Positions 2,672 through 44,876 of a DNA stretch of 64,000 bases are shown in pieces. The notes under the pieces were generated by a model. That model did not search any database and was not told where the DNA came from. It saw only the letters and a list, made by a program, of their open reading frames with translations. The DNA is from Daucus carota subsp. sativus (taxonomy: Eukaryota > Streptophyta > Magnoliopsida > Apiales > Apiaceae), in assembly GCF_001625215.2 (NCBI RefSeq), contig NC_030385.2, forward strand, positions 40,139,598-40,203,597, in the 5' to 3' direction. Every line of letters begins with the position of its first letter. Position 1 is the first letter of the stretch. Made by a program: the position numbers and the translations under genes.

Positions 2672-3163
2672 GCTCACTAGCAGATGAAGCAAATATTATC
2701 AAGTGAAAACAATGCCATAATATAATGAGCACTTTGGTCATCACTCATCACTCATCACCCATCACCATCCTTGATCCTACATATGAATCGTTAAATCTCA
2801 CCATCCATGCTTTTCCTCGACCAATAAGAAAGCTGTCGTGCCCTGGTAGGCGGAATCCTGTCTTTCTGGACCACATTCTTTAAAATCTTATCATCTACTC
2901 CGATTAATTTGTAAGTTAAACTTTTTTTTTAAAAAACTATTCAAATGGCTTCTTTTATCACTAAACATGCGTCTATAATAAGTTTAAGTTTCACTCGGTG
3001 ACGATTTTGGACCACATTCTTTAAAATCTATCGTCTACTCGGATTAATTTAGTTAATTTATAAGTTAAGCTTTTTTTCTAAATCATTCAAATGACATCTA
3101 TTATTCTTTTATCACTAAACATACGTTTACAGTAAGTTTAAGTTTCTCTTCTAATGTAATCTG
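2672..3163 (-). promoter_or_regulatory. UGT promoter region with a ~140-bp tandem duplication
   Basis: This region lies upstream of the minus-strand UGT that starts at 2671. A block beginning ACCACATTCTTTAAAATC occurs at about 2868 and again at about 3010. Both copies run on through a T-rich tract and 'tatcactaaacat' to 'taagtttaagtttc', giving two imperfect direct repeats of about 140 bp. A short version (CCACATTCTTTAAGATCTG) sits near 18170, upstream of the third UGT, so the promoter was duplicated with the gene. The retrotransposon inserted just beyond the second copy. Confidence 0.6.
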
Positions 3164-3168
3164 ATCCA
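3164..3168. repeat. Target site duplication ATCCA (left) of the LTR element
   Basis: ATCCA directly precedes the left LTR and recurs at 15539-15543 directly after the right LTR. This 5-bp duplication is what a Ty3/gypsy integrase makes. Confidence 0.95.
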
Positions 3169-3850
3169 TGATAACGCCAATCTCCGATCCCGGTCCTTCC
3201 TCCGCCGTGGATGACGGTTCTGCGGTGTAGCTGCTGGAAGGGTTCCTACAAAACAACGCCGGCGGGGGGGTTTTGCCCCGAAGCGCCTCCGGCGTGAGAA
3301 TAAGAGCAGGCTTTGGAAGGATAAAGATTAGAAAGTGTGTTATCTATGTGTGGTGGGTGAAGGTGGTGTATGGTGGTTGCATGGTGGCTGGAGGCTTTTG
3401 TGTTTATGTGTATGCTGAGTGCTTAAGTGTGTGCAGAGAATGAATATAGTGAGAGTGAAGTTAACCCCCAGACTCTTGACCCTTGGTCTATTTATAGGCC
3501 AAGGATTAGGGTTCGGGGGTGCGTACCTGGATCCTGGTCCTACACGTGTAGGGGTTTGATCCCCTACACGTGTCCAGGTGTCGGCGTGGAAGTAGTCTTT
3601 TGGAATGTTCCCTGGCTTGTCTCTATCGCCAGTGGTTGACCGTTATATTTGTCTTCATCGTGTCAGTCTGTGGCTCGTGCAGTAGTTGTCGGCTGGTACG
3701 TGTTTGGGTCCCGGTCGAGGGGTATAGGTCCGGGTAGTATCCGGGTCCTTGACTCTACCTGGATGGCGTACCCTGGTAGTTGGTAATCCTTCATGGGGTC
3801 GGGGTCCCGGAGTGGACCCGGGCTAGGGTAGTCCGGGTTGTACCATATCA
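3169..3850 (-). repeat. 3' LTR (left LTR) of the Retand-type element
   Basis: 682 bp, TG...CA, matching 14857-15538 by eye over the full length. On the sense (minus) strand it follows the polypurine tract. It contains TATAAATAG (minus, 3488-3497). Upstream of that, in the sense direction, lies an inverted pair of CTACACGTGTAG-like boxes at about 3539-3572. Short open frames inside are not taken as genes. Confidence 0.96.
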
Positions 3851-3867
3851 TTTGCCCCCCACTCCCT
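3851..3867 (-). other. Polypurine tract
   Basis: On the minus strand the bases GGGAGTGGGGGGCAAA lie directly before the 3' LTR start TGATATGG. This is the expected primer for plus-strand DNA synthesis. Confidence 0.85.
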
Positions 3868-4263
3868 TATATAGATTCTCTATGTGAGGGAGTAGAGTGG
3901 AGTTTCTGCTTTGTTTCCCCGATCGAGTGGATCCGGATAAGGGCGGAGGTTTATTCTTGCCCCCCGGTCTCGGTAAATCCGGGTTGATACAGGAGTTTAT
4001 GTTTGCCCTCTTACTCGAGTAGACTCGGGTGGGGATGGAAGCTGGTGGATGGACCCGGGTCGGTCGAATCTTGCTGATTTCTGTACCTTCGTATCTGTGG
4101 ACCCGGGTGGGGAAGTCGCCCGGGTCGAGGGATGGCGAAACGGTTGAGGTGCGTGGAATTTGAACGGGTTGAGTGTCTGGGAAGTTGTATCGACACGCCT
4201 TTTGAGGAGGGGTAATAATAACAAACGGCTGTAATAATTTGTATCCAGCCAATAGGAGGTCGC

Positions 4264-4290
4264 CACGTGGCCTACTAGCACGGCTATAAG
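4264..4290 (+). promoter_or_regulatory. Promoter of the antisense gene inside the retrotransposon (G-box plus TATA)
   Basis: A perfect G-box CACGTG (4264-4269) is followed 15 bases later by TATAAG (4285-4290), and then a pyrimidine-rich stretch where a start near 4315 would fall. A leader exon and intron follow in the right orientation for the spliced gene that starts at 5125. Seen: the boxes and spacing. Inferred: that they drive it. Confidence 0.55.
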
Positions 4291-5124
4291 TACACACCCC
4301 TTTTCACTTCCTCGTTTTTTACTTTTACCTTCGTTTCCATAATTTCTCCGCTTCATTTTTTGCTGTCGCTCGAGGGTGCTTTTTTGCGGGAGGTTTCACT
4401 GGAATCTCAAGAGTCGTTGTCGTCGTTGTTCTTGCGTCGTCGGTCTCGGTAAGCCCCTTCTTCGCCTCATTGTTCGTATTTTTATTGTCGCTGTCTTCTT
4501 TTGCTGTACTTCGAATGCCATGCTTAAGTTTGTGGAATTGTTGTTGATTTTGGTTGCTTTTTGTGTTCCGATTTCGGCTTGGTATATAAGTGTATTTGTT
4601 CGACTGTTTATGAATGTGAGTTTTTGAGTTTCGGACGCGTAGATGTGATGATTGGGGGTGTGTAAGTTGTGGGTTTTGGTCGTCGGAAATTTGGGTTTGT
4701 GCTGGGTTTTTGGGTGGCTGTTCTTGGGTGTATGTGTATGTATATTTGTATGTGGCGAGGGATTTGAGTTTTGATCTTTGGTTTTGATTTGAAATGTGTT
4801 ATAAACTGTTTTTGCCTGTTGGGTTTCCGGGGATTTGAACTGAGCCCGGGTATGACAAATATGCCCGGGTTGGGTAGCTTTGGTAGTTGGTGGTTGTGGA
4901 ATTGTATGTGTTTTAATTGCGTTGTAGTTATGGGGACTCAAATGGGACCCGGGTAGAATCGGTTGAGTGGCTTAATAGGATCCGGGTAGTGTTATTTGTA
5001 CTTGGTTATTTCTCTTCTTTCGATGGTGTTCCGTATAGAGCTAGGATGGGATCCGGACCCAAATAAAATCTGTAACTGTATGTGAGTTCTAAAATTGACC
5101 CGGGTTGCTTTTGTATTTAGGTTT

Positions 5125-7686
5125 ATGGTCCGGATCCCTAGGCCGCCCAGGAGAGAAATTGTTGCTTATTCGGCGGTACCCGGGGAATTCTCTAGCGATA
5201 CAGAGTGTGACGAGGTCCATACCCTTGCTCACCGTGCCCGGGAAAAGATGGCTGAAGAAGAGGTTTCGTCTTCGGGTGTGATATCTGCCAGGCAGGACGT
5301 CAAAGCTACAGTAGGGAGACAAGTGATCATGTCTCCGGAAGGAATGTGGTGTGATTCCAAGTCTTTTTTTATAATCAAGGCTCCCATGGTAGATGAGACG
5401 GCGTTTTACGCAAATATGGCCGGGTTCTACCGGTGTAAGCATCCCAACGGTCCGCTGGCTCCTTATGATAAGGGGAGATTTGATGAAATGTTCAGCAAGC
5501 TGTCATTGGTCCGGGCTCCGTATCCCCTTAGGAGCCATATTAGTGAGATGTCCCCGGAGGATGCGGACTTGATGATCCGGGCTGCGTTCCAGCTCCCGCC
5601 CGAGGTTGAATGGAGATGGCCAGAACCCGGGGAGAGAATATATCACCGTCCGGCTGACGGTTTCGTGCCCGTGTGGATGGAGCACCTTAGATCCGGGTGG
5701 AATCCAAGGTGGCATATCTTTTTTAAGCATCTGTGTAAGTACGAGTTTAAGTGCTCCCCAATGCAGATTACCCCTAACGCTATCAAGTGGATGTCTTGGT
5801 TCTTGATGGCTTGTAATAAGAAGAACTATTACCCGACCTTGAAGTTATTTCACATGCTCTTTCAGTTCAAGAAGTCTGGGGTTAAGCCCTTATATGAGTT
5901 GCGTTTCCGCTCCAAGGAGATGGGTCTCGGATCCGGGTTTACGAGCCCGGTTAGTCACTTGAGCTCGTTGAAGCACTGGAACGGGGAAGTTCTGATGCTG
6001 AAGGGTTTGGATCTGGCATTTATGCCTTATATTGTTACAGATGACAAGTTGGTCCGGACGGACTTTGGGGCCCCGGGTGCTGCTGGTGAATTCCGGGAAC
6101 AATTACGCGACTTCTGCAATTGTCTCGGGTTTCAATTGACCCGGGATTCATTTATGCAGTATGACAAGATGCATCTTGCCGGCTGTAAGTTGTATCCTCT
6201 GTATCCGGGTTTACTTTTTATTTGTGTTTCTTTAGCGGGTGTCCGGGTCGACTATAGCTTGTATTGTTTTTCCCTTCTAAGAAATGTAGTTGGTGTTGCC
6301 TATTTTACCCTGGTTGATTGTTATTTGTCTTAGTAGATTCCTCCTGGCCTGTTTTAGCTGTTGTATTGTGTTCTGATCTGTGTGTTTCCCTATCGATGCA
6401 GGCTTGCCTTTCTTTAACGAGGGATTGTGGAAGGAGATGGCTAGTGATTCGTTTGCTGCGCATCTGAAGAATCTGGCAGGAGCCCATGTTGTCCCTAAAC
6501 CGAAACCGAAGACTAAGGCAAAGTCTGCTAAGAAGGGGCAATCCGGGTCTTCCCGCCAGGAGACCGAGGGAACCGGGACTTCGAGTCACAACCCGGACTC
6601 GGTGTTGCAAGTGCAAGATTCGGATCTTGCCGTGGATGTCTTGGGTGCGGAAAGTCCGGATTTCCAACCGCTAAAGAAGAAGATGAAGCCCAGTAAGCAG
6701 GTGCTTGGTGTTGGGGAGGGGGGAGTGGATCCTGGTAAGACGGCTGTGGAGATACTTGATGATGAGGTGGAGGTTGAGGAGGGAGACCGGGTAGTTTCCA
6801 AAATTGACAAGCCGGAGTTTGGGCGGTACTCTGTTAAAAAGGTGATTGGGATGATGTCCGAGCTGCCGTCTGATCAGGACTGGGAGATGATGGACAAGCA
6901 GGGTCTAGTCGAGAACTTTAAAGAGCTCGGGAATCTTTGGGGCCAGGTATTCTTCGATCCGGGTTCTCTTGCTTTTATTTTTTCCTCCCTCTCTTTTTTG
7001 TACTTGGTGTTTTTCGTTTGGTAATGCTTGGTTTCCTGATTTTGCTTGGGCTTTGGTTTTGTCAGCTTGGCGGACGTCTAGCCGGGTTCAATACTCGTGC
7101 TTTGGAGGAGTTGAAGAAGGAGAGGGAGTTCTCTGCTAACAGCCTTACCCGGATCTCTAAGTTGGAGAAGAAACTGGATGTGGAGCGATCGGCTAGGGAA
7201 GTGCTGGAGTCGGGGATGGCGACTAAAATCAAGGAGGCTGAGGCTCGTAAAGAAACTGAGCTCGGGCAGAGGGCAAAAGATGCTGAGATCCGGGCGGACA
7301 AGGCTGAGAAGAGGGTATCCGAGTTGGAAAAACAGATCTCCGACTTGAAGTTGCAGCTGGAGGCCCGGAAGGCCCCGGAGGAGGTTGTTGCTGAGTTTCA
7401 GCGGTCTAAGGCTTATGGGGATGCTTTGGCGAAGGCCGCTGCTGCTGAGGTTATGCGCTGCTGGACCGTGGCTGAAAAGCACATCAAGACTGATCCGGGT
7501 GCGAATGCGCAGAGCTTTACTGATCTTTACATTGCCGCAAAGAACAGGATTTCGGCGGGCGGAGGGGAGCCCGAGCCCTATGTTGCCCCGGGTCAGGAAG
7601 TGGACTCGGACTCATCTGCTGAATCTGAACCCTTGGACGAGGAGATTCCTGTCACCGATCCCCCCGCTGATGATCCTCCTGTTTAA
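5125..7686 (+). CDS. Antisense gene of the Retand-type element: three coding exons, coiled-coil protein
   Basis: Coding exons 5125-6184, 6402-6946 and 7066-7686 join in frame (CT|GTAAGT...GCAG; CAG|GTATTC...GTCAG) to give 741 residues. A leader intron 4449-5120 (TCG|GTAAG...TTTAG) ends four bases before the ATG at 5125, which favours this start over the ATG at 5095. Residues 1-60: basic then acidic, disordered. About 65-350: a globular domain with FFKHLCKYEFKCSPMQITP and LFHMLFQFKK, resembling the plant-mobile-domain-like proteins of Tat antisense frames. Lys/Pro-rich nuclear-type patch at 385-398. Long Glu/Lys coiled coil at about 543-640, then an acidic tail. Antisense frames of this kind are known in Tat elements, but their role is not. 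It lies opposite to pol and converges with it. No reverse transcriptase or nuclease residues are seen. The splicing is my reading and is untested. Confidence 0.75.
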
Positions 7687-7899
7687 GTTTTATCTGCCTT
7701 TACCTTGAAGAACAATGTTTTTTTTTTTTTTTGTAAGGCTGGATATGTCTTTGTTTCCGGATTTGGATGTTTGTCCGGGTCTGTGCTGACCTGGGCTCGT
7801 GGATATTTGTCCTCTACTGCTTTTATCGAATATTTCCTTGTCATCTTTGCCTGTGAATGCGTTTTGTATATTTCTTTCTCATGTTCGATTGTTTTAGAA

Positions 7900-8545
7900 T
7901 AATTTCCCGGCAACGCCTGCCCGGATCGATTGCTTCTAACTGCTTTGTACCCGGGTATGATTGCTCAAATAGCTTTCATACTTAGAAATTTCTTAAACGA
8001 AACAGATGGATCCGGGCAAAGTGGATCCGGGTCTGATTGCTGAGAATATTTTTATAAGTACATCGAATAGGTGGATCCGGGTAATGCTTGCCCGGGTTGA
8101 TCGCTTTTAGATGTGTTTGCCTTAGAAAAGTTTTCCAAGTAAATTAAATTGATGGACCCGGGCAATGCTTACCCGGGTTGATTGCTTTATGTGTGTGTAC
8201 TCAGAAAACTTTTCCAAGTTAAATAGATGGACCCGGGCAATGCTTACCCGGGTTGATTGTTTTATGTGTGTTTGCACTTAGAAAACTTTTCCAAGTTAAA
8301 TAGATGGATCCGGGCAATGCTTACCCGGGTTGATTGCTTTATATGTGCACTTAGAAAACTTTTCTAAGTAAATTGAATAGATGGACCCGGGCAATGCTTA
8401 CCCGGGTTGATTGTTTTTTTTTAGCTTTTGCACTTAGAAATTTTTCCAAGTCAGATGATTGGATGGATGGACCCGGGTAGATCCTTCCTGGGTTGGTTGT
8501 TGACATTGCTTGGTTGCCTTAGAAATTTTCTAAGTAGATAATAAT
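7900..8545. repeat. Tandem repeat array, unit about 75-86 bp
   Basis: Units start near 8071, 8151, 8226, 8303, 8380 and 8466, with degenerate units before that (about 7948 and 8005). Each has GATGGACCCGGGCAATGC, then TTACCCGGGTTGATTG, then an AT-rich part ending CTTAGAAAACTTTTCCAAGT. CCCGGG/CCGGGT pairs make each unit partly palindromic. The array lies between the stop of the antisense gene (7686) and the stop of pol (8677), so it may carry the terminators of both. Amplified tandem repeats in this place are known for Retand-like elements. Confidence 0.9.
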
Positions 8546-8676
8546 ATAGATTCATTGGTAGCAAAAGACTTCATTGATATTAAAACTATTACACAGCTTT
8601 GAGAATGATCAAAAGTACATGATTGCTTTTAGGGATATGTAGCTGTCTTCTGGGATCCTTGTCCTTCTTTCTCATT

Positions 8677-11600
8677 CTACTGGTAGAATTTCCTTAACCT
8701 GAGTCCGTGCCAGGTGTTAGATACTTCTGACCCGTCCATGTTCTCCAGTTTGTAAGTACCCGGTCTTAGGATTTCTTTCACTTTGTATGGGCCTTCCCAC
8801 TTAGGCATCAGCTTGCCGGTGTTGGTGGGATCAGAGGCCTCGGTGTCTCGTAAGACCAGGTCTCCTACTTGGAAGTTTCTAACTCGGGATTTCTTGCTGA
8901 AGTGATCCCGGGTCTTCTCTTTGTATTTCTCCATTTTTGCGATTGCCTGGTCTCGAACCTCATCTACCAAGTCCAAGTTGACCCGGAGTCCCTCTTCATT
9001 GGTGATCTCGTCAAAATTGATTGCCCTATGGGAGGGTGACCCGACTTCAATTGGAAGCATTGCTTCAGTTCCATAGGCTAACTTGAATGGAGTCTCGCCG
9101 GTGCTTGTCCGGGGACTGGTTCGATATGACCAGAGAACATGTGGCAATTCTTCTGGCCATTTGCTCTTGCTTTCCTCTAACCTTTTCTCAATTCCTCTCA
9201 GGAGGATCCGGTTGGTGACCTCTACCTGGCCATTTCCTTGAGGATAGGCGACTGAAGACTTCTTGTGCTTGATGCCTCTTTCGGCCAGGTAGCTTTCAAA
9301 GTCCGACCCGATGAACTGGGGGCCATTGTCTGAGACCAGGACTCTTGGTATCCCGAATCTCATCAGAATGTTGTCCATGAACCGGATGACATCTTGTTGA
9401 TTGATCGTCCGCATTGCCTTGGCTTCAACCCACTTGGTCATATAATCAATGGAGACAAGCAAGTATCTGAGGTCTCCTTTAGCCCGGGGGAAGGGTCCCA
9501 TGATGTCTATCCCCCATACAGCAAAGGGGATCGGGGATAAGACCGAGGAGGGTAGGACAGGGCTTACCCGGGGCACGTTGCTGAATAGCTGGCAATTTTT
9601 GCATTTCTTAACAAACTCGACGGAGTCTTGATGAATTGTTGGCCAGTAGTAGCCTTGCCGGATGATTTTATAGGCCAGGCCTTTTGCCGACATGTGATCT
9701 CCACAGATCCCTTCGTGAACTTCCCTCAGACAGTATTCGGCCTCCTCCGGACCTATGCATTTCAGGATTGGGGATGAGTAGGTCCGGCGGAAGAGGATCC
9801 CGCCTTCTACGAAAAACTTTGCTGCCTTAGCTTTTAGTCTTTGAGCTTTTCCTTTGTCCTCGGGTAACTCTCCTTTTTCTATGTAGTTGATCAGGGGAGT
9901 CATCCAGGTAGGGTCGTTGTTGATTTCAAGGATTTCTTCCTGCTCTATTGTGGGTTTGTGCAATTCTTCGAAATACACTGAGCTATCCAGGTCTGCCGAA
10001 TTTTGGACCAACCTGGAGAGGTTGTCCGCCTCCGCGTTTTCTTCCCTGTTGACTTGCAAGATTTTGCACCCGGGGATCAGGGTGAGGTAGCTTTTCACCA
10101 AGGCTTGATACCTGGTCAGGATTGGGTCTTTGGCGAGGTATTCCCCGTTTGTCTGCCTGACCACAATTTGTGAGTCGCTGTAGATGGTTAGGTTCCGGAT
10201 TGACAGGGTTCGGACCAACTTTAACCCCGCCAACAGGGCTTCATACTCTGCTTGATTGTTGGTTGCTGCGAACTTGAAAGAGATTGCTGTTTTGATGGTG
10301 AACCCATCCGGGCTCTTCAGGATTAGCCCGGCTCCTGACCGTTCGGTTGTTGAGGAACCGTCGACATGGAGTATCCAAGACCCCAGGTTAGGCTCTACCG
10401 GGGCTTCCGGTTCGGTTTCCATGGAAGTTGTTTGATCTTCTGGGAAGTTGCATTCCACTACGAAGTCTGCCAGGACCTGGGCTTTGACTGCTGTCCGGGG
10501 TAGAAACGTTAGGCTGAACTGGCTAAGTTCGATTGCCCAGTTCACCAGTCTCCCGGAGATGTCTGGCTTGTGAATGATTTTCCTTAGCGGTTGGTCTGTT
10601 ACAATCCTGATTTCTCTTCCTTGGAAGTAATGTCTGAGTTTTCTGGATGCGGTGATCAGTGCGAAAGCAAATTTCTCTAGGTTGGGGTATCTGGTCTCTG
10701 CATCTTTGAGGACCTGGCTGACATAGTAGACAGGTTTCTGCTGCCCGGCTTCTTCCCTGATCAGGGCTGCCCCAACGGCCAAAGGTCCGGCTGACAGGTA
10801 TAGATAGAGAGGTTCTCCGGGTAAGGCCTTTGTCAGGATCGGGGGTTTGGACAGGTATGCTTTTATTTCGTCAAGAGCTCTTTGGCAATCCGGGCTCCAT
10901 TCTACTAACTTCTGATTTTTTGCCCCTTTTAATAACTCAAAGAATGGTAGACATCTTTCAGCGAGTTTGGAGACAAACCTTCGGAGTGCTGCTAAGGACC
11001 CTGCTAGCTTTTGGACCTCCCTCTGAGTCCGAGGTGGTTGAATCTCTTGCACAGCTTTGATCTTCTCCGGGTTTGCCTCGATACCCCGGTTGCTTACCAT
11101 AAAACCCAAAAACTTTCCAGCTTCGACTCCAAAAGTGCACTTGTCCGGGTTGAGCTTTAGCTTGGTTCTTCTCATGTTCTCAAAACATTCTCTAAGATCT
11201 GAAATGTGACCCGAGACTGATGTTGACTTGGAGATGATGTCGTCGACATAGCATTCCAGATTTCTTCCGAGTTGGTCTTTGAAAATTTCATTCATCGCCT
11301 TCTGGTATGTAGACCCGGCGTTCCTTAATCCGAAAGGCATCAGTTTGTAAGCATACACTGCCCGGTGGGTTATGAAAGCTGTCTTGGCTATGTCTGCTGG
11401 GTTCATCTTAACCTGGTTGTACCCGGAGAAAGCGTCCATAAAGCTTAACATCAGGTGTCCTGATGTGGCATCGATAAGCTGGTCTATGCTTGGTAAAGGA
11501 TAAGGGTCCTTCGGGCATGCCGCATTCAGATCCGTGTAGTCAACACACATCCTCCATTTTCCGTTTGCTTTCTTTACCATGACTACATTAGCTAGCCACT

Positions 11601-14463
11601 CCGGGTATTTGATCTCGCAGATGATATCTGCCTTCATTAATTTGCCAACTTCCTCATCTATTGCCTTCTGCCTTTCTGGTGCGAAGTTTCTTCGTTTTTG
11701 TTTAACAGGCTTCTTTTTGGGATCGACGTCCAGGCTGTGCATTGCCAATGATTCATCCAACCCGGGCATGTCGTCCGGGCTCCAGGCAAAAACATCTGCA
11801 TAGCTCCGGAGTAGTTGGATGAGTTCCTCTTTAAAGACCGTATCCAAGCCTTTCCCAATTTTGATTCTTCTTGTCGGGTTGTCTTTTTCGATCAGGACCG
11901 ACTCGGTCTCGACCGCAGCTTCAACCTTGGTCAATTCTTGTGCCGAGATCATTTGCTGGATCCGGGCATCAGTGTTCTTTTCCACAAAATCTTGAGCTGA
12001 GCTCATGGTTGCTTTCTGGTTGCTTGGTCCAGGACCAGGATTGATTGCTCCCGGGCTATGACTGCCCGGGTCTAGGTCGATGACTTGGACTTCACCCTTA
12101 GGGTTTGTCCTTGGGTAGGGTCGATGCTTTTTGTTACTTCTCTGTTTTTGGAAGACGGTGGCCTTTCTCTTGTTGTCCATATGGGTTTCCGCCATAACCA
12201 AGGCCTGACTGTAACATACCCCGGCTGTTTCCGAATCTCCTTTGACTTCGCCTACCCCGAACGGAGTCGGGAATTTGAATTTCAGGTGCGTAACAGAAGT
12301 GATGGCTTCGATCTTGTTTAGACCCGGACGGCCAATGATCACATTGTAAGATGAGGGAGTGTCTGTGACATAGAATTTGATCATATGGACGACTTGGGTT
12401 GGGGCTGTGCCGAAACGGACCGGGAGGTAAAGAGTTCCTAGGACCGGGACGATGCTGTTCCCGAATCCGTATAAGGGGTCCTCCCTGTAGTCGTTCATCC
12501 GGATGCTCCCTAGTTGCATTCGGTCCATGGTGTGTTTAAACAAGATGTTTGCTGAAGAGCCGTTGTCGACTAGGATCCGCCTGACCTCATTCTCAGCTAT
12601 ATCCAAGGTTACCACCAGGGCCTGATTGTGACCCCGGGTGACACCCTCGAAGTCCTTGCTGCTGAAGGAAATGACTTGTTCAGGGAAGGCTTGGATGGAC
12701 ATGACTTCTTGACCGGGGTCCGGGCTGGGAGGAGGTGAGCAGGATCCGCCCAGTACCACGTTGACAATGTTCTTTTGTTTCCCCGAACCATCTCCCTTGT
12801 TTGCTGTGTTCCGGGCTATATATTGTCCCATGTTTCCTTTGTTGATCTGCTCCTCAATGAAGTACTTGAGGGATATGCAGTTTTCTGTTTTGTGACCGTG
12901 AGTGCCATGGTAGTCACAGTGTCGGTTGGTGGGTCTGCTCTCCGGGGGAGTCTGCATGGGTTTTGGTGGGTAGTAGAAGGGTTTGTCTCTGATTTCTTTG
13001 AGTATGTCCTCGCGGGATCTGTTGAGAGGAGTCCACTCGGGCTCTGGTTTTGGTTCCCTGGTTGCTTTGTTTGGACCGGGGTCACTTCTGGACCCGGATC
13101 CCTGTTGGCTGGTCCTCTTGGAACCTGATTGCTGGATGAAGTTTGTCTGTCTGTCCGGTTTGAATTTCTTGTCCTGGTGATATTCTTTCCGGGGTCTATC
13201 CTCGACCTGCTTCCCTTTTGAGCTTCCTTGTCGGGTCATCCTCATTGCTTGGAGCACATCGGTTTCCTTAATGAATTTTGCGGCCATGGCATAGGCAGCT
13301 GCCAGGCTCTGGGGCTCTTTGTTGATCAATTCGACCACATACCTCTCATTTTGTTCCGGGTCCAGGTTCCTTCGGAATATGCTCAGAGCTTCACGCTCAT
13401 CCAGGTTGGAAATTTTGTTGATTGCTTCCTGGAAACGTTTCATATAGTCTGAGAGTGCCTCATTGTCATATTGGCGAACCGTTTCCAGGTGACACATATG
13501 GAGTTCATGGGTCTTGTTTGCTCGAAACCTTCTGAGGAAGGCTTCCCTGAAATCTTTCCAGGATCCGATGCTCCGGGAGGGGATCCGGCTGAACCATCTC
13601 TGGGCCCCTCCCTTGAACGTGGATGCGAAGAAGCGACATTTGGTTAGATCATTGTACCAGTAAATTTGGGCTATCTGTTCGAAGTAGTGCAGGTGTTCCT
13701 CCGGGTCTCCCAATCCATTGAAAGATTCAAAGTTGTAGTGTTTCATACCCTTTTGTCGGGGTATGGATTCCAAGGAGTGGCTGAAGGGAGTCAGGGTTCC
13801 CCCGATTTCAAGCCCGGCATCATTTCCGATTTTCCGGTTGAGTTCATTGATCATGTCTCTGAGGTTGGTTTGCCCCGGTCTCTCATCCTCGTCATCAGAG
13901 ATGAGTTCGGGTGTTGTTTCCTTCCGGTAGCGCTTGGACCGGGATCCTTTTGTCAACTTTTCCTCTTCGAGTTGAATCCGAAGGGCGATTTTTTGCTCAA
14001 GTTTTTCCTCTTCTTCTTTTCGGATCTGTTCTTTTCTTTCAGCCAAGATTTTTAGCCTGGTTTCCTCACTATCCTTTTGCTTCTTTTTCTTTGCTTTGTC
14101 CCCGATCCGGTCGAAGACGGAACCCCGGGATTGACGGCTGTTCCCGGAGTCCTCAGACTCATCGATGTCCTCGAGTCTGCGGTTGCTTTCCCGGCGATCA
14201 TGGTACTGCCGGATGGCTTCGGCCAACTCTATATTGGTGAGCTGGGACAGGTGGAGGGTGGTGATCGGGACATCGGTGTACTTGTACTGGTTTGCTTCGA
14301 TCGTGACCCGGGCATCATTGGGGTGGATTGTTTGGTTCTCCTCCGGGTTCACATGGGTGAAAAGGGGTCCCGAGGCATGATCCTGGTTCGGGTTATCCTG
14401 GTCTGTCTGAGGGTTATCCGGGTTCTGGGGAAGGCCCAGGTGGGAGCGTGTCCTTTTTGCCAT
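8677..14463 (-). CDS. Gag-Pol polyprotein of the Tat/Retand retrotransposon
   Basis: One frame of 1928 residues with no frameshift between gag and pol. Order by residue: acidic/basic coiled N-terminus (85-215); Gag core (240-395, with FKGGAQRWFSRIP); Cys/His knuckle-like CDYHGTHGHKTENC (516-529); aspartic protease with DNGSSANIL (633-641); reverse transcriptase (955-1125) with YVDD at 1072-1075; a first RNase H (1210-1340) whose leading Asp is lost (LYLSAG); a second RNase H (1360-1490) with Asp1368, Glu1406, Asp1430, Asp1480; integrase with His1583/His1590/Cys1621/Cys1624 and Asp1653, Asp1712, Glu1748 (35 residues between the last two). The C-terminal WEGPY module ends in RKFYQ. All core catalytic residues are present, so the protein looks functional. 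The two RNase H domains are typical of the Tat clade. Cleavage sites were not determined. Many shorter opposite-strand frames here are shadows. Confidence 0.96.
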   Translation of the reverse strand: MAKRTRSHLGLPQNPDNPQTDQDNPNQDHASGPLFTHVNPEENQTIHPNDARVTIEANQYKYTDVPITTLHLSQLTNIELAEAIRQYHDRRESNRRLEDIDESEDSGNSRQSRGSVFDRIGDKAKKKKQKDSEETRLKILAERKEQIRKEEEEKLEQKIALRIQLEEEKLTKGSRSKRYRKETTPELISDDEDERPGQTNLRDMINELNRKIGNDAGLEIGGTLTPFSHSLESIPRQKGMKHYNFESFNGLGDPEEHLHYFEQIAQIYWYNDLTKCRFFASTFKGGAQRWFSRIPSRSIGSWKDFREAFLRRFRANKTHELHMCHLETVRQYDNEALSDYMKRFQEAINKISNLDEREALSIFRRNLDPEQNERYVVELINKEPQSLAAAYAMAAKFIKETDVLQAMRMTRQGSSKGKQVEDRPRKEYHQDKKFKPDRQTNFIQQSGSKRTSQQGSGSRSDPGPNKATREPKPEPEWTPLNRSREDILKEIRDKPFYYPPKPMQTPPESRPTNRHCDYHGTHGHKTENCISLKYFIEEQINKGNMGQYIARNTANKGDGSGKQKNIVNVVLGGSCSPPPSPDPGQEVMSIQAFPEQVISFSSKDFEGVTRGHNQALVVTLDIAENEVRRILVDNGSSANILFKHTMDRMQLGSIRMNDYREDPLYGFGNSIVPVLGTLYLPVRFGTAPTQVVHMIKFYVTDTPSSYNVIIGRPGLNKIEAITSVTHLKFKFPTPFGVGEVKGDSETAGVCYSQALVMAETHMDNKRKATVFQKQRSNKKHRPYPRTNPKGEVQVIDLDPGSHSPGAINPGPGPSNQKATMSSAQDFVEKNTDARIQQMISAQELTKVEAAVETESVLIEKDNPTRRIKIGKGLDTVFKEELIQLLRSYADVFAWSPDDMPGLDESLAMHSLDVDPKKKPVKQKRRNFAPERQKAIDEEVGKLMKADIICEIKYPEWLANVVMVKKANGKWRMCVDYTDLNAACPKDPYPLPSIDQLIDATSGHLMLSFMDAFSGYNQVKMNPADIAKTAFITHRAVYAYKLMPFGLRNAGSTYQKAMNEIFKDQLGRNLECYVDDIISKSTSVSGHISDLRECFENMRRTKLKLNPDKCTFGVEAGKFLGFMVSNRGIEANPEKIKAVQEIQPPRTQREVQKLAGSLAALRRFVSKLAERCLPFFELLKGAKNQKLVEWSPDCQRALDEIKAYLSKPPILTKALPGEPLYLYLSAGPLAVGAALIREEAGQQKPVYYVSQVLKDAETRYPNLEKFAFALITASRKLRHYFQGREIRIVTDQPLRKIIHKPDISGRLVNWAIELSQFSLTFLPRTAVKAQVLADFVVECNFPEDQTTSMETEPEAPVEPNLGSWILHVDGSSTTERSGAGLILKSPDGFTIKTAISFKFAATNNQAEYEALLAGLKLVRTLSIRNLTIYSDSQIVVRQTNGEYLAKDPILTRYQALVKSYLTLIPGCKILQVNREENAEADNLSRLVQNSADLDSSVYFEELHKPTIEQEEILEINNDPTWMTPLINYIEKGELPEDKGKAQRLKAKAAKFFVEGGILFRRTYSSPILKCIGPEEAEYCLREVHEGICGDHMSAKGLAYKIIRQGYYWPTIHQDSVEFVKKCKNCQLFSNVPRVSPVLPSSVLSPIPFAVWGIDIMGPFPRAKGDLRYLLVSIDYMTKWVEAKAMRTINQQDVIRFMDNILMRFGIPRVLVSDNGPQFIGSDFESYLAERGIKHKKSSVAYPQGNGQVEVTNRILLRGIEKRLEESKSKWPEELPHVLWSYRTSPRTSTGETPFKLAYGTEAMLPIEVGSPSHRAINFDEITNEEGLRVNLDLVDEVRDQAIAKMEKYKEKTRDHFSKKSRVRNFQVGDLVLRDTEASDPTNTGKLMPKWEGPYKVKEILRPGTYKLENMDGSEVSNTWHGLRLRKFYQ

Positions 14464-14836
14464 GGTTTCAAGAACTTACACAGGGTATATGGTTGCTGTT
14501 TTGGTGACAATGCTTGCAAACAGTATAGATAGTGACAAGGTGACAAAAATAGTGTGCACAAGTAGTCAACTTACTATTTTCAGAGATACCACAAATAGTT
14601 AAGTGACAAAATGTGTGCAGGTGTGAGACAAAAGATTTTATGTGCTACAGACAAGATTAGGGTTTTGCTCAGACAGGGTTTGCTAACATGCTCATATCAA
14701 GAAAAGCCATGGCTGAGGGTTTTGAGAAGCTGGGTGTTTGGTGAGAGCTTACTGGTGTTATTTGGACCCCCGTTTCGGGGGCTTGTTGTAGGAGATGAGT
14801 CCAGTGGCACCGTGACCACAGGACAGAGGACACCTT

Positions 14837-14854
14837 CCCCTCCTTCTAGCGCCA
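14837..14854 (-). other. Primer binding site
   Basis: Two bases inside the 5' LTR the minus strand reads TGGCGCTAGAAGGAGGGG. It begins with TGG, the complement of a tRNA CCA tail. I cannot name the tRNA from memory; matching it against a plant tRNA set would settle that. Confidence 0.7.
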
Positions 14855-14856
14855 AA

Positions 14857-15538
14857 TGATAACGCCAATCTCCGATCCCGGTCCTTCCTCCGCCGTGGAT
14901 GACGGTTCTGCGGTGTAGCTGCTGGAAGGGTTCCTACAAAACAACGCCGGCGGGGGGGTTTTGCCCCGAAGCGCCTCCGGCGTGAGAATAAGAGCAGGCT
15001 TTGGAAGGATAAAGATTAGAAAGTGTGTTATCTATGTGTGGTGGGTGAAGGTGGTGTATGGTGGTTGCATGGTGGCTGGAGGCTTTTGTGTTTATGTGTA
15101 TGCTGAGTGCTTAAGTGTGTGCAGAGAATGAATATAGTGAGAGTGAAGTTAACCCCCAGACTCTTGACCCTTGGTCTATTTATAGGCCAAGGATTAGGGT
15201 TCGGGGGTGCGTACCTGGATCCTGGTCCTACACGTGTAGGGGTTTGATCCCCTACACGTGTCCAGGTGTCGGCGTGGAAGTAGTCTTTTGGAATGTTCCC
15301 TGGCTTGTCTCTATCGCCAGTGGTTGACCGTTATATTTGTCTTCATCGTGTCAGTCTGTGGCTCGTGCAGTAGTTGTCGGCTGGTACGTGTTTGGGTCCC
15401 GGTCGAGGGGTATAGGTCCGGGTAGTATCCGGGTCCTTGACTCTACCTGGATGGCGTACCCTGGTAGTTGGTAATCCTTCATGGGGTCGGGGTCCCGGAG
15501 TGGACCCGGGCTAGGGTAGTCCGGGTTGTACCATATCA
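14857..15538 (-). repeat. 5' LTR (right LTR) of the Retand-type element, with promoter
   Basis: 682 bp, matching the left LTR by eye. As the 5' LTR it should hold the promoter. On the minus strand TATAAATAG lies at about 15176-15185. Some 40-75 bp upstream of it is an inverted pair of ACACGTGT boxes (15227-15242 and 15249-15261), a G-box/ABRE-like core. The target duplication ATCCA follows at 15539-15543. Confidence 0.95.
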
Positions 15539-15543
15539 ATCCA

Positions 15544-16739: not shown

Positions 16740-18071
16740 CTAGTATGCTTGCATATTCTTGCTGCAAACTTGCTTCAATTCCGCAGCTGCCTTGTCCAAA
16801 TCATTCTCTCCTTTCTCCTCTATTTTCAACTTCAATTCTCTAGCTTTCCCCCTTGCACCTTCTTCACTTTCTTCTGTCAAAACCTTCCTTATAACATCAG
16901 CAATCTCCTCTCTCTTATACTTGCCTTCATTGTTCCTCGCTATCGCCATACCAATCCCAATCTCCACCACAAGCTTGGCATTCGTAAGCTGATCCCCTCT
17001 TATGGGCATTGCAATAATAGGCACACCAAATTTCATGCTCTCATTCACAGAACTCCATCCGCAATGACTGAGGAAGCCAGCAATGCTTGAATGTCCCAAA
17101 ATCGTCGTCTGTGGCGCCCACCCCTCCAGAATCAATCCTGAATCCCCTATCTTTTCAATAAATCCCTCTGGGAGTTCTAGACATTTTGTTTCCTCTCCTT
17201 GTGGAGACCTCACAGACCATATGAAATCACACTTGGTTATCTCTAATGCATTTGACATCTCTATCGCTTCTTCTGCAGATAGATAGTTCTCGCTCCCAAA
17301 GCACACAAAAAGCACCGAAGATTTTTGTTTCTTGTCTAGCCATTTCATGATATTCTTCGTGTCATCATCTTCATTTTCGGGTGCATCATGAACAAGTGGA
17401 CCGACAGGAATCAAAGTTTTCTGAACCAGATCTGATAGAAGATCAATATATTTTCCTTCAGCCTCTCTAAAACTCTTAATCAAAACAAGGTTGCTTGACC
17501 GTTCAGAGCATAACGCAATTTCCCTAATAGTCTTGAGTACAGATTCAGGAAAATTAGGCGGGGCAGCTGAAAACAAAGCAATCTCTGGGAAGGGGAATTT
17601 TTCCCCAGCCCTTTTGTATAGATGTACAACTACACAAGAGGCTGCTGCGGCATTGACTGTAAAATAAACAGCTGGAATATTCAGAGACAGAGCAACCTCT
17701 GCAGGCCAAGAAGGCTTGAAATCATACATAATCAAATCCGGTTTAATGACTTTGAGGATTTCAATGAAAATTGGAGCTGCCATCTCGAAAGCTTGTTCAA
17801 GGATCGGGATGAGGTTGGTTGGGAGGCCCTTTGTGGAATGATAATGAGGAGGTAATTCTGCAGAAGCAGGAAGATCAAACTCAACTAGTCGAATATGATC
17901 ATTTTGATGCACTCTGTTCTTGATTGAAGCAAGGTTGATAGGCGTAGAACAAATATAAATTATGAAACTTCTTTTTCCGAGCTGTTTAGCTAGTTCTAAG
18001 AAGGGACAGATGTGACCATAGGCTAAATGTGGTAACATCAGTATACTCATTCTGCCATTTTCACTCTCCAT
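16740..18071 (-). CDS. UDP-glycosyltransferase, UGT94-like
   Basis: Single exon, 443 residues from the ATG at 18071; the frame is also open to an ATG at 18113. MESENG at 18071 matches the paralogue at 2671 and is taken as the start. Catalytic His20 in YGHICPF; Asp near 117 in MYDFKPSW; PSPG box Trp318-Gln361 with WAPQTTILGH, then SHCGWSS, then GVPIIAMPIRGDQ. Position 340 is Ser, where the paralogue has Asn; HCGWSS is common in UGT94. A likely role is adding glucose to a glycoside acceptor in the cytosol. It keeps the cluster's minus orientation. Tissue, acceptor and the second sugar are not readable from sequence. Confidence 0.93.
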   Translation of the reverse strand: MESENGRMSILMLPHLAYGHICPFLELAKQLGKRSFIIYICSTPINLASIKNRVHQNDHIRLVEFDLPASAELPPHYHSTKGLPTNLIPILEQAFEMAAPIFIEILKVIKPDLIMYDFKPSWPAEVALSLNIPAVYFTVNAAAASCVVVHLYKRAGEKFPFPEIALFSAAPPNFPESVLKTIREIALCSERSSNLVLIKSFREAEGKYIDLLSDLVQKTLIPVGPLVHDAPENEDDDTKNIMKWLDKKQKSSVLFVCFGSENYLSAEEAIEMSNALEITKCDFIWSVRSPQGEETKCLELPEGFIEKIGDSGLILEGWAPQTTILGHSSIAGFLSHCGWSSVNESMKFGVPIIAMPIRGDQLTNAKLVVEIGIGMAIARNNEGKYKREEIADVIRKVLTEESEEGARGKARELKLKIEEKGENDLDKAAAELKQVCSKNMQAY

Positions 18072-18309
18072 GATCAACTCCGTTCTGTTTTTATGCTTTT
18101 TCACTACGAACATTAAAGTTGTTCTTATTTATACAATTTTGTAGAATAAAATCGTGGCTGCTGTTTCAGGCCACATTCTTTAAGATCTGTTATCTATTCG
18201 TACTAGTATTATTTCATTTAGTGTATGGATACTAGTAACTTGTATTACATACACACAAATTTTATCCTCAGATATGCATGGATTTGTCCAACTACATAAA
18301 ATTAAGGTC

Positions 18310-43081: not shown

Positions 43082-43547
43082 CAGTGGTGTGAAATGCGCA
43101 AATCGGCTCTAAACGGTTGGATGACCTTCTAGCGCTTAAGCGGTAAAGCAGACGCTTAAGCGTAATTTTAAGTGGGTCAATAAGCGGATTAATTATATAT
43201 TTAGTTATAATATTAATATATTTAAAAATAATATTATGTTCAGTTAAGAATATGCATTTTTAATATTTTTGATAAAAATATATTTTTTTAATTTTTTAAT
43301 ATTATTATAGTTATATTATTAAAAAAATTAATTTTTAAAAAATATTTTTTTAAAAATTAGCAAGTCAACATCATTTTGACCGCTTAATTACCGCTTAATC
43401 CGCTTAACGACCACTTAATCCGCTTAATTGTCCGCTTAATTTTCAAAAACGCTAGATCTTCCGCTTAGTACAAAATTGAAACGCTTTAGGGCCGATTCCG
43501 CTTAAGCGGCCGCTTAATCGGCCGCTTAATGCGCTTTTTACAACACT
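43082..43547 (+). mobile_element. hAT-type MITE, copy A (466 bp)
   Basis: Begins CAGTGGTGTGAAATGCGC and ends GCGCTTTTTACAACACT, with the 8-bp duplication CTTAAAAC at 43074-43081 and 43548-43555. Both arms are full of CGCTTAA/TTAAGCGG motifs around an AT-only middle. It lies in the opposite orientation to copy B. Confidence 0.88.
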
Positions 43548-44396
43548 CTTAAAACAGATAATTTTTCTGAGTTTTCATAAATTCACCCTGATTAGAATTT
43601 GGAGCCTACCTGAGCCCAGACATGCAGATCCATCCATGACCGTAAAGCACGCAAACCGAAACAATTATAACTAGTTGATAAACCGCGCATTGCGGCAGTT
43701 TTTTAAATTATATTAATGATTCAATATTAATATTTGTTTAATAAAATAATTTTGTGGCTCTCAATAATATGTATATTAATGTTTTAAAATTAGTATTTGC
43801 AGAATAAAATAAATTTATATTATAAAAATCTTGATGTAATACCTATACTAATATATAAAATTACAAAATTGGACTATAATTCATGGTGAAAAAATGAAAA
43901 TAGATTTATACACGTAATTAACAATTTAAAACACGGCGAATCTTAATTTTATTTGTGTTTTTTTAAAAAGTAATCATGTTCTTTTTTTTTTTATGGAAGT
44001 AATCATGTTCTTACATTGTCACCTTCCCCCAATTTTTTTGGATTAATTGTGCACAAAAACATGTAATTTAAATCCTTGAGATATCGGTCTATAACTACTT
44101 TTGCTTGTAACAACCTTTATTTTTTATTACTATATAAACAGTCTTCACTTAAAAGTTGCTTGAATGGAGCAAAAAAATTATGCATGTATAATTATTTCCT
44201 GTATACAAAGTAAATCATATAAAAAATAACAACAAAAAACATGTCCGATGAACAAAACAAATATTATAAAAGACTAACCAACAAACATACATTACTAATA
44301 GTTAATTTATTGATATCATCCATCAATATCATGTCAAGAATATATTCTTTTCACGTGTTTGGATTTGTCGACTCCCACATAACGGTCTATAACTAC

Positions 44397-44876
44397 CAGT
44401 GTTGTAAAAAGCGCATTAAGCGGCCGATTAAGCGGCCGCCTAAGCGGAATCGGCCCTAAAGCGCTTCGATTTTGTATTAAGCGGAAAATTAAGCGTTTTT
44501 GAAAATTAAGCGGACAATTAAGCAGATTAAGCGGTCGTTAAGCGGATTAAGCGGTAATTAAGCTGTCAAAATGATGTTGACTTGCTAATTTTTTTTAAAT
44601 TTTTTGTTTGAAATATTAATTTTTTTAATAATATAACTCTAATTATATTATAAAATTAAAAAAAAATATATTTTATCAAAAATATTAAAAATGCATATTC
44701 TTAACACAACATAATATTATTTTTAAATATATTAATATTATAACTAAATATTTAATTATATTTAATTAATCCGCTTATTGACCCGCTTAAAATTCCGCTT
44801 AAGCGTCCGCTTTACCGCTTAAGCGCTAGAAGGTCCTCTTGCCGCTTAGAACCGATTTGCGCTTTTCACAACACTG
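44397..44876 (-). mobile_element. hAT-type MITE, copy B (480 bp), nested in Helitron copy 1
   Basis: Begins CAGTGTTGTAAAAAGCGC and ends GCGCTTTTCACAACACTG, with perfect 8-bp duplications ATAACTAC at 44389-44396 and 44877-44884. It is the same family as 43082-43547 but inverted, as the AGCGCTAGAAGGTCC segment near the right end shows. The sequence around the duplication matches Helitron copy 2, giving an independent empty site. Confidence 0.92.

Follow-up and report, generated by a model that had tools for sequence, protein, structure and literature searches.

In the 64,000-nucleotide stretch of carrot DNA analysed here (the window, part of contig 5), a recently inserted Ty3/gypsy retrotransposon carries, on the strand opposite gag-pol, a spliced gene of 741 codons that is strongly supported as an independent unit running from promoter to stop. 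The reading frame, splice sites and promoter of this gene are conserved among copies of the element, and the element itself is filled with a short word, ACCCGG, to which the encoded protein probably binds, possibly to keep its own family from being silenced. The gene belongs to a known kind, the antisense TRP28 (Transposase_28) genes of Retand elements; its conserved splicing, its conserved promoter, the dispersed word and the mosaic genealogy are new.

A complete antisense gene in a recently inserted retrotransposon

The element is complete and occupies 12.4 kb (3168-15538). Its LTRs do not differ at a single base, so its insertion must be recent. As gag-pol lies on the minus strand (14475-8677), the 741-codon gene on the plus strand, which sits between pol and the 3' LTR, is antisense to it. 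An earlier note had described a host-like gene in this position inside a young retrotransposon; we find the exon and intron boundaries that it gave for the frame to be exact to the base, and the leader intron, the G-box and the TATA box are all present where it had placed them. The exons (5125-6184, 6402-6946 and 7066-7686) join to form 741 codons plus a stop, and the leader intron, with a GT donor at 4449, ends in an acceptor AG at 5119-5120, four bases ahead of the ATG at 5125. The features of the element are as follows.

3163-3167, no strand: target-site duplication ATCCA, with its partner at 15539-15543
3168-3850, minus strand: 3' LTR, 683 bp, with 0 mismatches to 14856-15538
3168-15538, no strand: 78 dispersed ACCCGG/CCGGGT words, an excess in shuffle, codon and copy comparisons
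4264-4269, plus strand: G-box CACGTG of the putative antisense promoter, recurring with a TATA box 8-60 bases further on in 27 of 34 sequences
4285-4289, plus strand: TATA box (TATAA), from its sequence and its recurrence with the G-box among copies
4449-5120, plus strand: leader (5' UTR) intron; GT aligned in 32 and AG in 31 of 33 other copies
5125-6184, plus strand: coding exon 1, median omega 0.057
5680-5868, plus strand: Transposase_28 (PF04195) domain, residues 186-248, 26.4 bits with exon 1 alone (cut-off 26.2)
6185-6401, plus strand: intron 1, GT...AG; GT in 32 and AG in 33 of 33 other copies
6402-6946, plus strand: coding exon 2, with a Lys-rich patch at about 6494-6538, median omega 0.123
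6947-7065, plus strand: intron 2, GT...AG; GT and AG each in 31 of 33 other copies
7066-7686, plus strand: coding exon 3, with a modelled helix of 99 residues (about 7069-7365) and the stop codon, median omega 0.135
8056-8501, no strand: tandem array of 77-bp units containing ACCCGG/CCGGGT, 15 words in the array
8677-14475, minus strand: gag-pol, a single open frame of 1932 aa with gag, RT, RNase H, an additional RNase H-like domain and integrase
14856-15538, minus strand: 5' LTR, 683 bp, identical to 3168-3850

The domain content of pol, the position of the antisense gene and the PF04195 domain all agree, and the element is consistent with a Retand-type element. The statement of the earlier note that Tat-type elements carry antisense frames is in print in the form of the Retand TRP28 frames (PMC11963269). 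Frames of this kind are described as a hallmark of Retand elements, 97% of the recently active Retand clusters having them (PMC11963269), so the gene is not peculiar to the window copy.

Conservation and selection among copies

The genome searched comprises 441 Mb in 11 contigs, and it contains at least 115 matches to the exon-1 protein, 52-100% identical over the aligned parts. These are match rows rather than copies, a few copies giving two rows; 95 of the 115 rows are free of stop codons. An alignment of 33 other copies with the window copy (34 sequences) was used for the comparisons that follow. The start codon is kept in 31 of the 33 other copies, and every splice dinucleotide of the leader intron and the two coding introns in 31-33 of them. 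Damage is found at the 5' end in L064 and L067 and further on in L023 and L034. The positions of both coding introns are also kept in all five copies examined at 52-71% protein identity. Exon 1 occurs in six distinct lengths, all congruent modulo 3, and nine of the ten distinct lengths of exon 2 are congruent as well, whereas the intron lengths are spread over all modulo-3 classes.

The comparison of synonymous and nonsynonymous change that the earlier note had proposed as a check revealed purifying selection on the frame, with median omega values of 0.057, 0.123 and 0.135 for exons 1, 2 and 3, and not one usable pair reached a value of 1. The outcome that the earlier note had named as refuting its reading, copies free of purifying selection on this frame, was thus not observed. 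The values, calculated without L023, L034 and L064, are approximate, since dS is near saturation in many pairs, and 337, 389 and 383 of the 465 pairs were usable. The shifted forward frames gave median omega values of 1.30-2.32, so that among the forward frames purifying selection is seen only in the true one. Frame 1 of the reverse strand also gave low values (0.17-0.26), which we take as an echo of shared third positions. The promoter stretch of the copies is only about 55% identical to that of the window copy, yet a G-box with a TATA box recurs in 27 of the 34 sequences, where chance alone would give about 0.1 G-box per 450 bases. Together, the splice sites, the frame, the omega values and the recurring promoter indicate that the gene, its splicing and its promoter are under selection, and the independent, host-like unit proposed in the earlier note thus gains strong support from the copies. 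Selection of this strength on frame, splice sites and promoter implies that the protein matters to the element.

Domains and predicted structure of the encoded protein

On exon 1, Transposase_28 (PF04195) alone among the Pfam models attains its cut-off; the whole 741-residue protein scores 24.9 bits, just under the cut-off of 26.2. All 29 exon-1 proteins scanned match PF04195 (E <= 0.01), and the presence of this domain places the gene among the published Retand antisense TRP28 genes. At E <= 1, the scan of the window protein returned PF04195, Lzipper-MIP1, TetR_C_23 and Tropomyosin and nothing else. The plant mobile domain (PF10536), which the earlier note had named as a candidate, is absent from the Pfam matches at this threshold, and we reject it in favour of PF04195.

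The earlier note had mentioned a nuclear-type Lys patch; in exon 2, a cluster with at least 5 Lys/Arg in 10 residues is indeed kept in all 28 sequences examined, the 34 less 6 damaged ones. The proposed coiled coil fared less uniformly. Single-sequence AlphaFold2 modelled exon 3 with one helix of 99 residues, in which the block of residues 11-90 has a pLDDT of 93-98, and a leucine-zipper Pfam match is present but below cut-off; a crude heptad Fourier test, however, supported a coiled coil in only 1 of 28 copies. For exon 1, an AlphaFold2 model from 29 sequences had a pLDDT of 38.8, too low for a fold search, and a profile search of solved structures returned no relative, with rows at chance level (best E 0.32). 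A DNA-binding fold can for these two reasons only be put forward hypothetically for this protein. In published work, the TRP28 domain has been predicted to bind DNA (PMC11963269).

A short word dispersed through the element

The element contains 78 ACCCGG words, whereas 200 dinucleotide-preserving shuffles gave 6.7 on average and never more than 13; the excess persists when the tandem array is left out (63 vs 6.5). Its density is 6.3 per kb in the element and 0.14 per kb elsewhere in the window. Within the element, the word is most crowded in the stretch from the antisense stop to the end of pol (19 per kb), followed by 10 per kb from the LTR to the ATG and 3.6 per kb in gag-pol, and it is missing from the 380 bp before gag. 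The same 380 bases (14476-14855, from the 5' LTR to gag) have a CCGG count of 0, unlike the remainder of the element.

Across the 34 sequences, the word occurs 545 times in noncoding parts, where 19.5 occurrences are expected, and 471 times in coding parts, where 44.4 are expected; it is the top noncoding hexamer in 32 of 33 copies. Shuffling of synonymous codons left an excess in all 14 sequences (z 3.1-7.1), with a z of 6.6 in gag-pol. The excess of the word therefore goes beyond codon choice. Many pairs of copies are close to saturation at the synonymous sites of the antisense gene, and the word would therefore not be expected to persist by inheritance alone. When the 34 sequences are aligned, the word is found at 15 positions of exon 1, and just 2 of these positions are common to 30 or more of the sequences, which indicates that individual sites turn over while their number is maintained. 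The flanks of noncoding CCGG show an A followed by C or T before the core and the mirror image after it, A(C/T)CCGG(G/A)T, a palindromic profile as would be expected of a site for a dimer. As controls, the elements L001-L008, mostly coding DNA of other lineages, contained 2 words in about 28.7 kb.

Family specificity of the word

Pairs of words, defined as two words within 25 bases, were searched for in the whole genome. There are 2207 such places, and the first 100 of them span contig 1 up to 19.66 Mb; 74 of these 100 lie within 12 kb of the six antisense genes of the family that are known in this span, compared with 0.7 expected. In this stretch of contig 1, paired words were found in all six family elements and in none of 14 other TRP28 (PF04195) elements, drawn from 150 scored of 864 candidates. 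Genome-wide, the paired word (1108 + 1099) is not above the reversed-pattern control (1194 + 1148), and the special feature of the paired word is therefore its clustering only, not its genome-wide count. The unit of the reversed control pattern, GGCCCA, is a common plant promoter word.

Two further observations concern the distribution of the word. Six paired places are gathered at 18888880-18890072 of contig 1, with no antisense exon-1 match within 12 kb among the matches listed; this is possibly a deletion derivative or a partial copy of the family. The distant antisense copies L071, L072 and L073, three copies only, prefer TCCGGA/ATCCGG over ACCCGG, with the same CCGG core. Co-variation of the flanking base with protein clade, the shift being in L071 and L073, was suggested by the counts but was not significant (p 0.10 and 0.28).

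Mosaic genealogy of the element

From 105 RT rows, 68 elements with an antisense row within 9 kb were chosen for comparison. Their RT protein is 98-100% identical to that of the window in 55 of the 68, while their exon-1 proteins range from 55 to 97% identity, and this contrast suggests an older genealogy of its own for the antisense module. Two elements have pol dS values of 0.54 and 0.42 and exon-1 dS values of 1.63 and 1.96, and a third has a pol dS of 0.34. At the tandem array, around 8040-8540, identity drops from about 90% to about 70%. Reverse transcription should introduce mutations at a similar rate over the whole of an element, so an exchange of the antisense module between elements appears to be the simplest reading. 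This claim is based on the dS comparison and on the table of RT proteins; RT DNA identity and antisense protein identity were not correlated (Spearman rho 0.13, p 0.45; 37 of 39 RT rows, with an RT range of only 93-95%).

Relation to known systems

The closest known counterparts are the Retand antisense TRP28 ORFs, including ORF4 of Silene Retand, which share with the carrot gene the position between pol and the 3' LTR, the antisense orientation, the Pfam domain and tandem repeats in the region (PMC11963269; PMC7264820). To these, the carrot gene adds two coding introns, a leader intron and a conserved promoter, and the carrot family adds a family-specific dispersed motif and a mosaic genealogy; the word 'intron' is absent from the main text of PMC11963269. 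The maize Grande gene23 is likewise an antisense accessory gene (PMC7264820; PMC11963269); it has a promoter of its own, from which it is transcribed, and it encodes a nuclear protein (PMC7264820, citing Gomez-Orte et al. 2013). Tat/Retand elements are among the most abundant plant retrotransposons, and the role of their antisense gene is posed as a question in print (PMC7264820; PMC11963269). A local drop in CG methylation has been described at the Retand elements of sunflower (PMC12844716).

A second likeness is to the VANC proteins of VANDAL transposons. These proteins remove DNA methylation (PMC5735166; PMC10398659), and their binding sites are short motifs that cluster in tandem repeats within noncoding regions of the transposons (PMC5735166). 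There, too, a transposable-element protein is combined with a short, family-specific word that is enriched in the element and its tandem repeats; in the VANDAL transposons, related families have different words (PMC5735166; PMC10398659). The carrot family resembles this system in having a short word strongly enriched in the cognate elements, 15 instances of which stand in the noncoding tandem array at 8056-8501. Unlike VANDAL, the carrot element is an LTR retrotransposon and has the word in its coding regions as well, and the likeness implies no sequence relation. The filling of gag-pol with the word counts against a VANC-like interpretation, the sites of VANC21 having been described in noncoding regions. 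In our literature search, which took in only a minority of the subscription papers, neither a dispersed family word nor conserved splicing nor anti-silencing of this kind was found described for a retrotransposon.

Proposed mechanism and alternatives

A constrained transposable-element protein, a family palindrome in a noncoding array and the exchange of modules together favour a system of self-recognition. In the mechanism that we propose, the G-box/TATA promoter just inside the 3' LTR would drive an antisense mRNA that carries the leader intron and the two coding introns and encodes the 741-residue Transposase_28 protein. The introns would persist because the genomic RNA, to judge from the orientation, is the opposite strand and presents no splice sites, and they would go through reverse transcription unspliced. 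The Lys patch may take the protein into the nucleus, and the long helix may pair it with itself. The protein would then bind the palindrome A(C/T)CCGG(G/A)T, scattered in the element and densest in its noncoding parts, the tandem array among them, and binding would mark the element's own family and keep it transcribable, as VANC does for the VANDAL DNA transposons. A DNA-handling or silencing role, as the earlier note had suggested for this protein, fits the motif evidence.

We consider it probable, from the sequence comparisons above, that the protein binds the ACCCGG word, whatever the outcome of binding. The reading we prefer, with a confidence just below an even chance, is that the protein is nuclear, associates with itself, binds the DNA of its own element and acts against silencing. 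More tentative is the general proposal that in Retand-type retrotransposons the spliced antisense Transposase_28 product dimerises on a CCGG-centred family palindrome, sown by selection in coding sequence as well, and counters silencing, while the gene and the 3' module are swapped between elements with nearly identical pol; we regard this as possible, but would sooner bet against it.

The word might instead be used by a host factor, help the RNA to dimerise or to be packaged by way of palindromic loops, or act as a signal for integration or recombination. The protein would then act in some other process, such as the import of the pre-integration complex into the nucleus, a role that has been proposed (PMC7264820). 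The occurrence of the word in gag-pol, LTR and introns alike agrees with such a use, which we nevertheless judge unlikely. The word is about equally frequent on both strands of gag-pol (10 and 11) and of the intergenic part (9 and 10); such a balance speaks for duplex DNA rather than RNA, although the antisense gene is skewed (5 and 12). In addition, the word is absent, among the matches listed, near the 14 other TRP28 elements, which share the host factors.

The protein could also be a sequence-specific DNA-binding repressor, a brake on the copy number of its own element rather than an anti-silencer. The model for such a brake is HBZ, the antisense protein of HTLV-1. The same data on gene, motif and selection apply to this explanation, and the present data fit either outcome; HBZ of HTLV-1 is mentioned in PMC11963269, and antisense regulation by protein and by RNA have both been discussed (PMC7264820). 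An omega near 0.06 would, however, be hard to sustain for a pure brake in selfish copies, and we give this explanation a slightly lower standing than a separate use of the motif.

It is very improbable that the antisense transcript itself matters, by forming double-stranded RNA with the genomic RNA, and not the protein: antisense transcription of such elements and the idea of double-stranded RNA have been published (PMC7264820), but the omega values of 0.06-0.14 in the coding frame, the in-frame indels and the conserved splice sites point to selection for a protein. That the frame is open by chance, or is a host gene that was captured and is useless to the element, is the least probable of all and is refuted by the 95 of 115 open exon-1 rows, the kept splice sites, the low omega and the PF04195 match in 29 of 29 proteins, the domain being reported from transposable elements only (PMC11963269).

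The preferred reading, in which the protein recognises its own family, would, if true, give the TRP28 domain a function. If its anti-silencing form is true, self-recognition by a protein and a dispersed motif arose in retrotransposons as well as in DNA transposons. To our knowledge, no VANC-like anti-silencing system has so far been reported from a retrotransposon, and this one would be the first. The candidate binding word makes the function of the protein addressable by a single in-vitro binding assay.

Other features of the window

An inverted match of 32 nt, 88% identical, lies within the LTR at 3168-3850. The element is flanked on either side by long open frames (1340-2695 and 16740-18128), which we take to resemble tandem UDP-glycosyltransferase genes. 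Farther along, at 43082-44876, there is an element-like structure with long inverted arms (pairs of 217, 119 and 107 nt at 90-92%) and arrays of ACCGCTTAATT-like units close to both inner ends; it may be a non-autonomous DNA transposon that has subterminal repeats.
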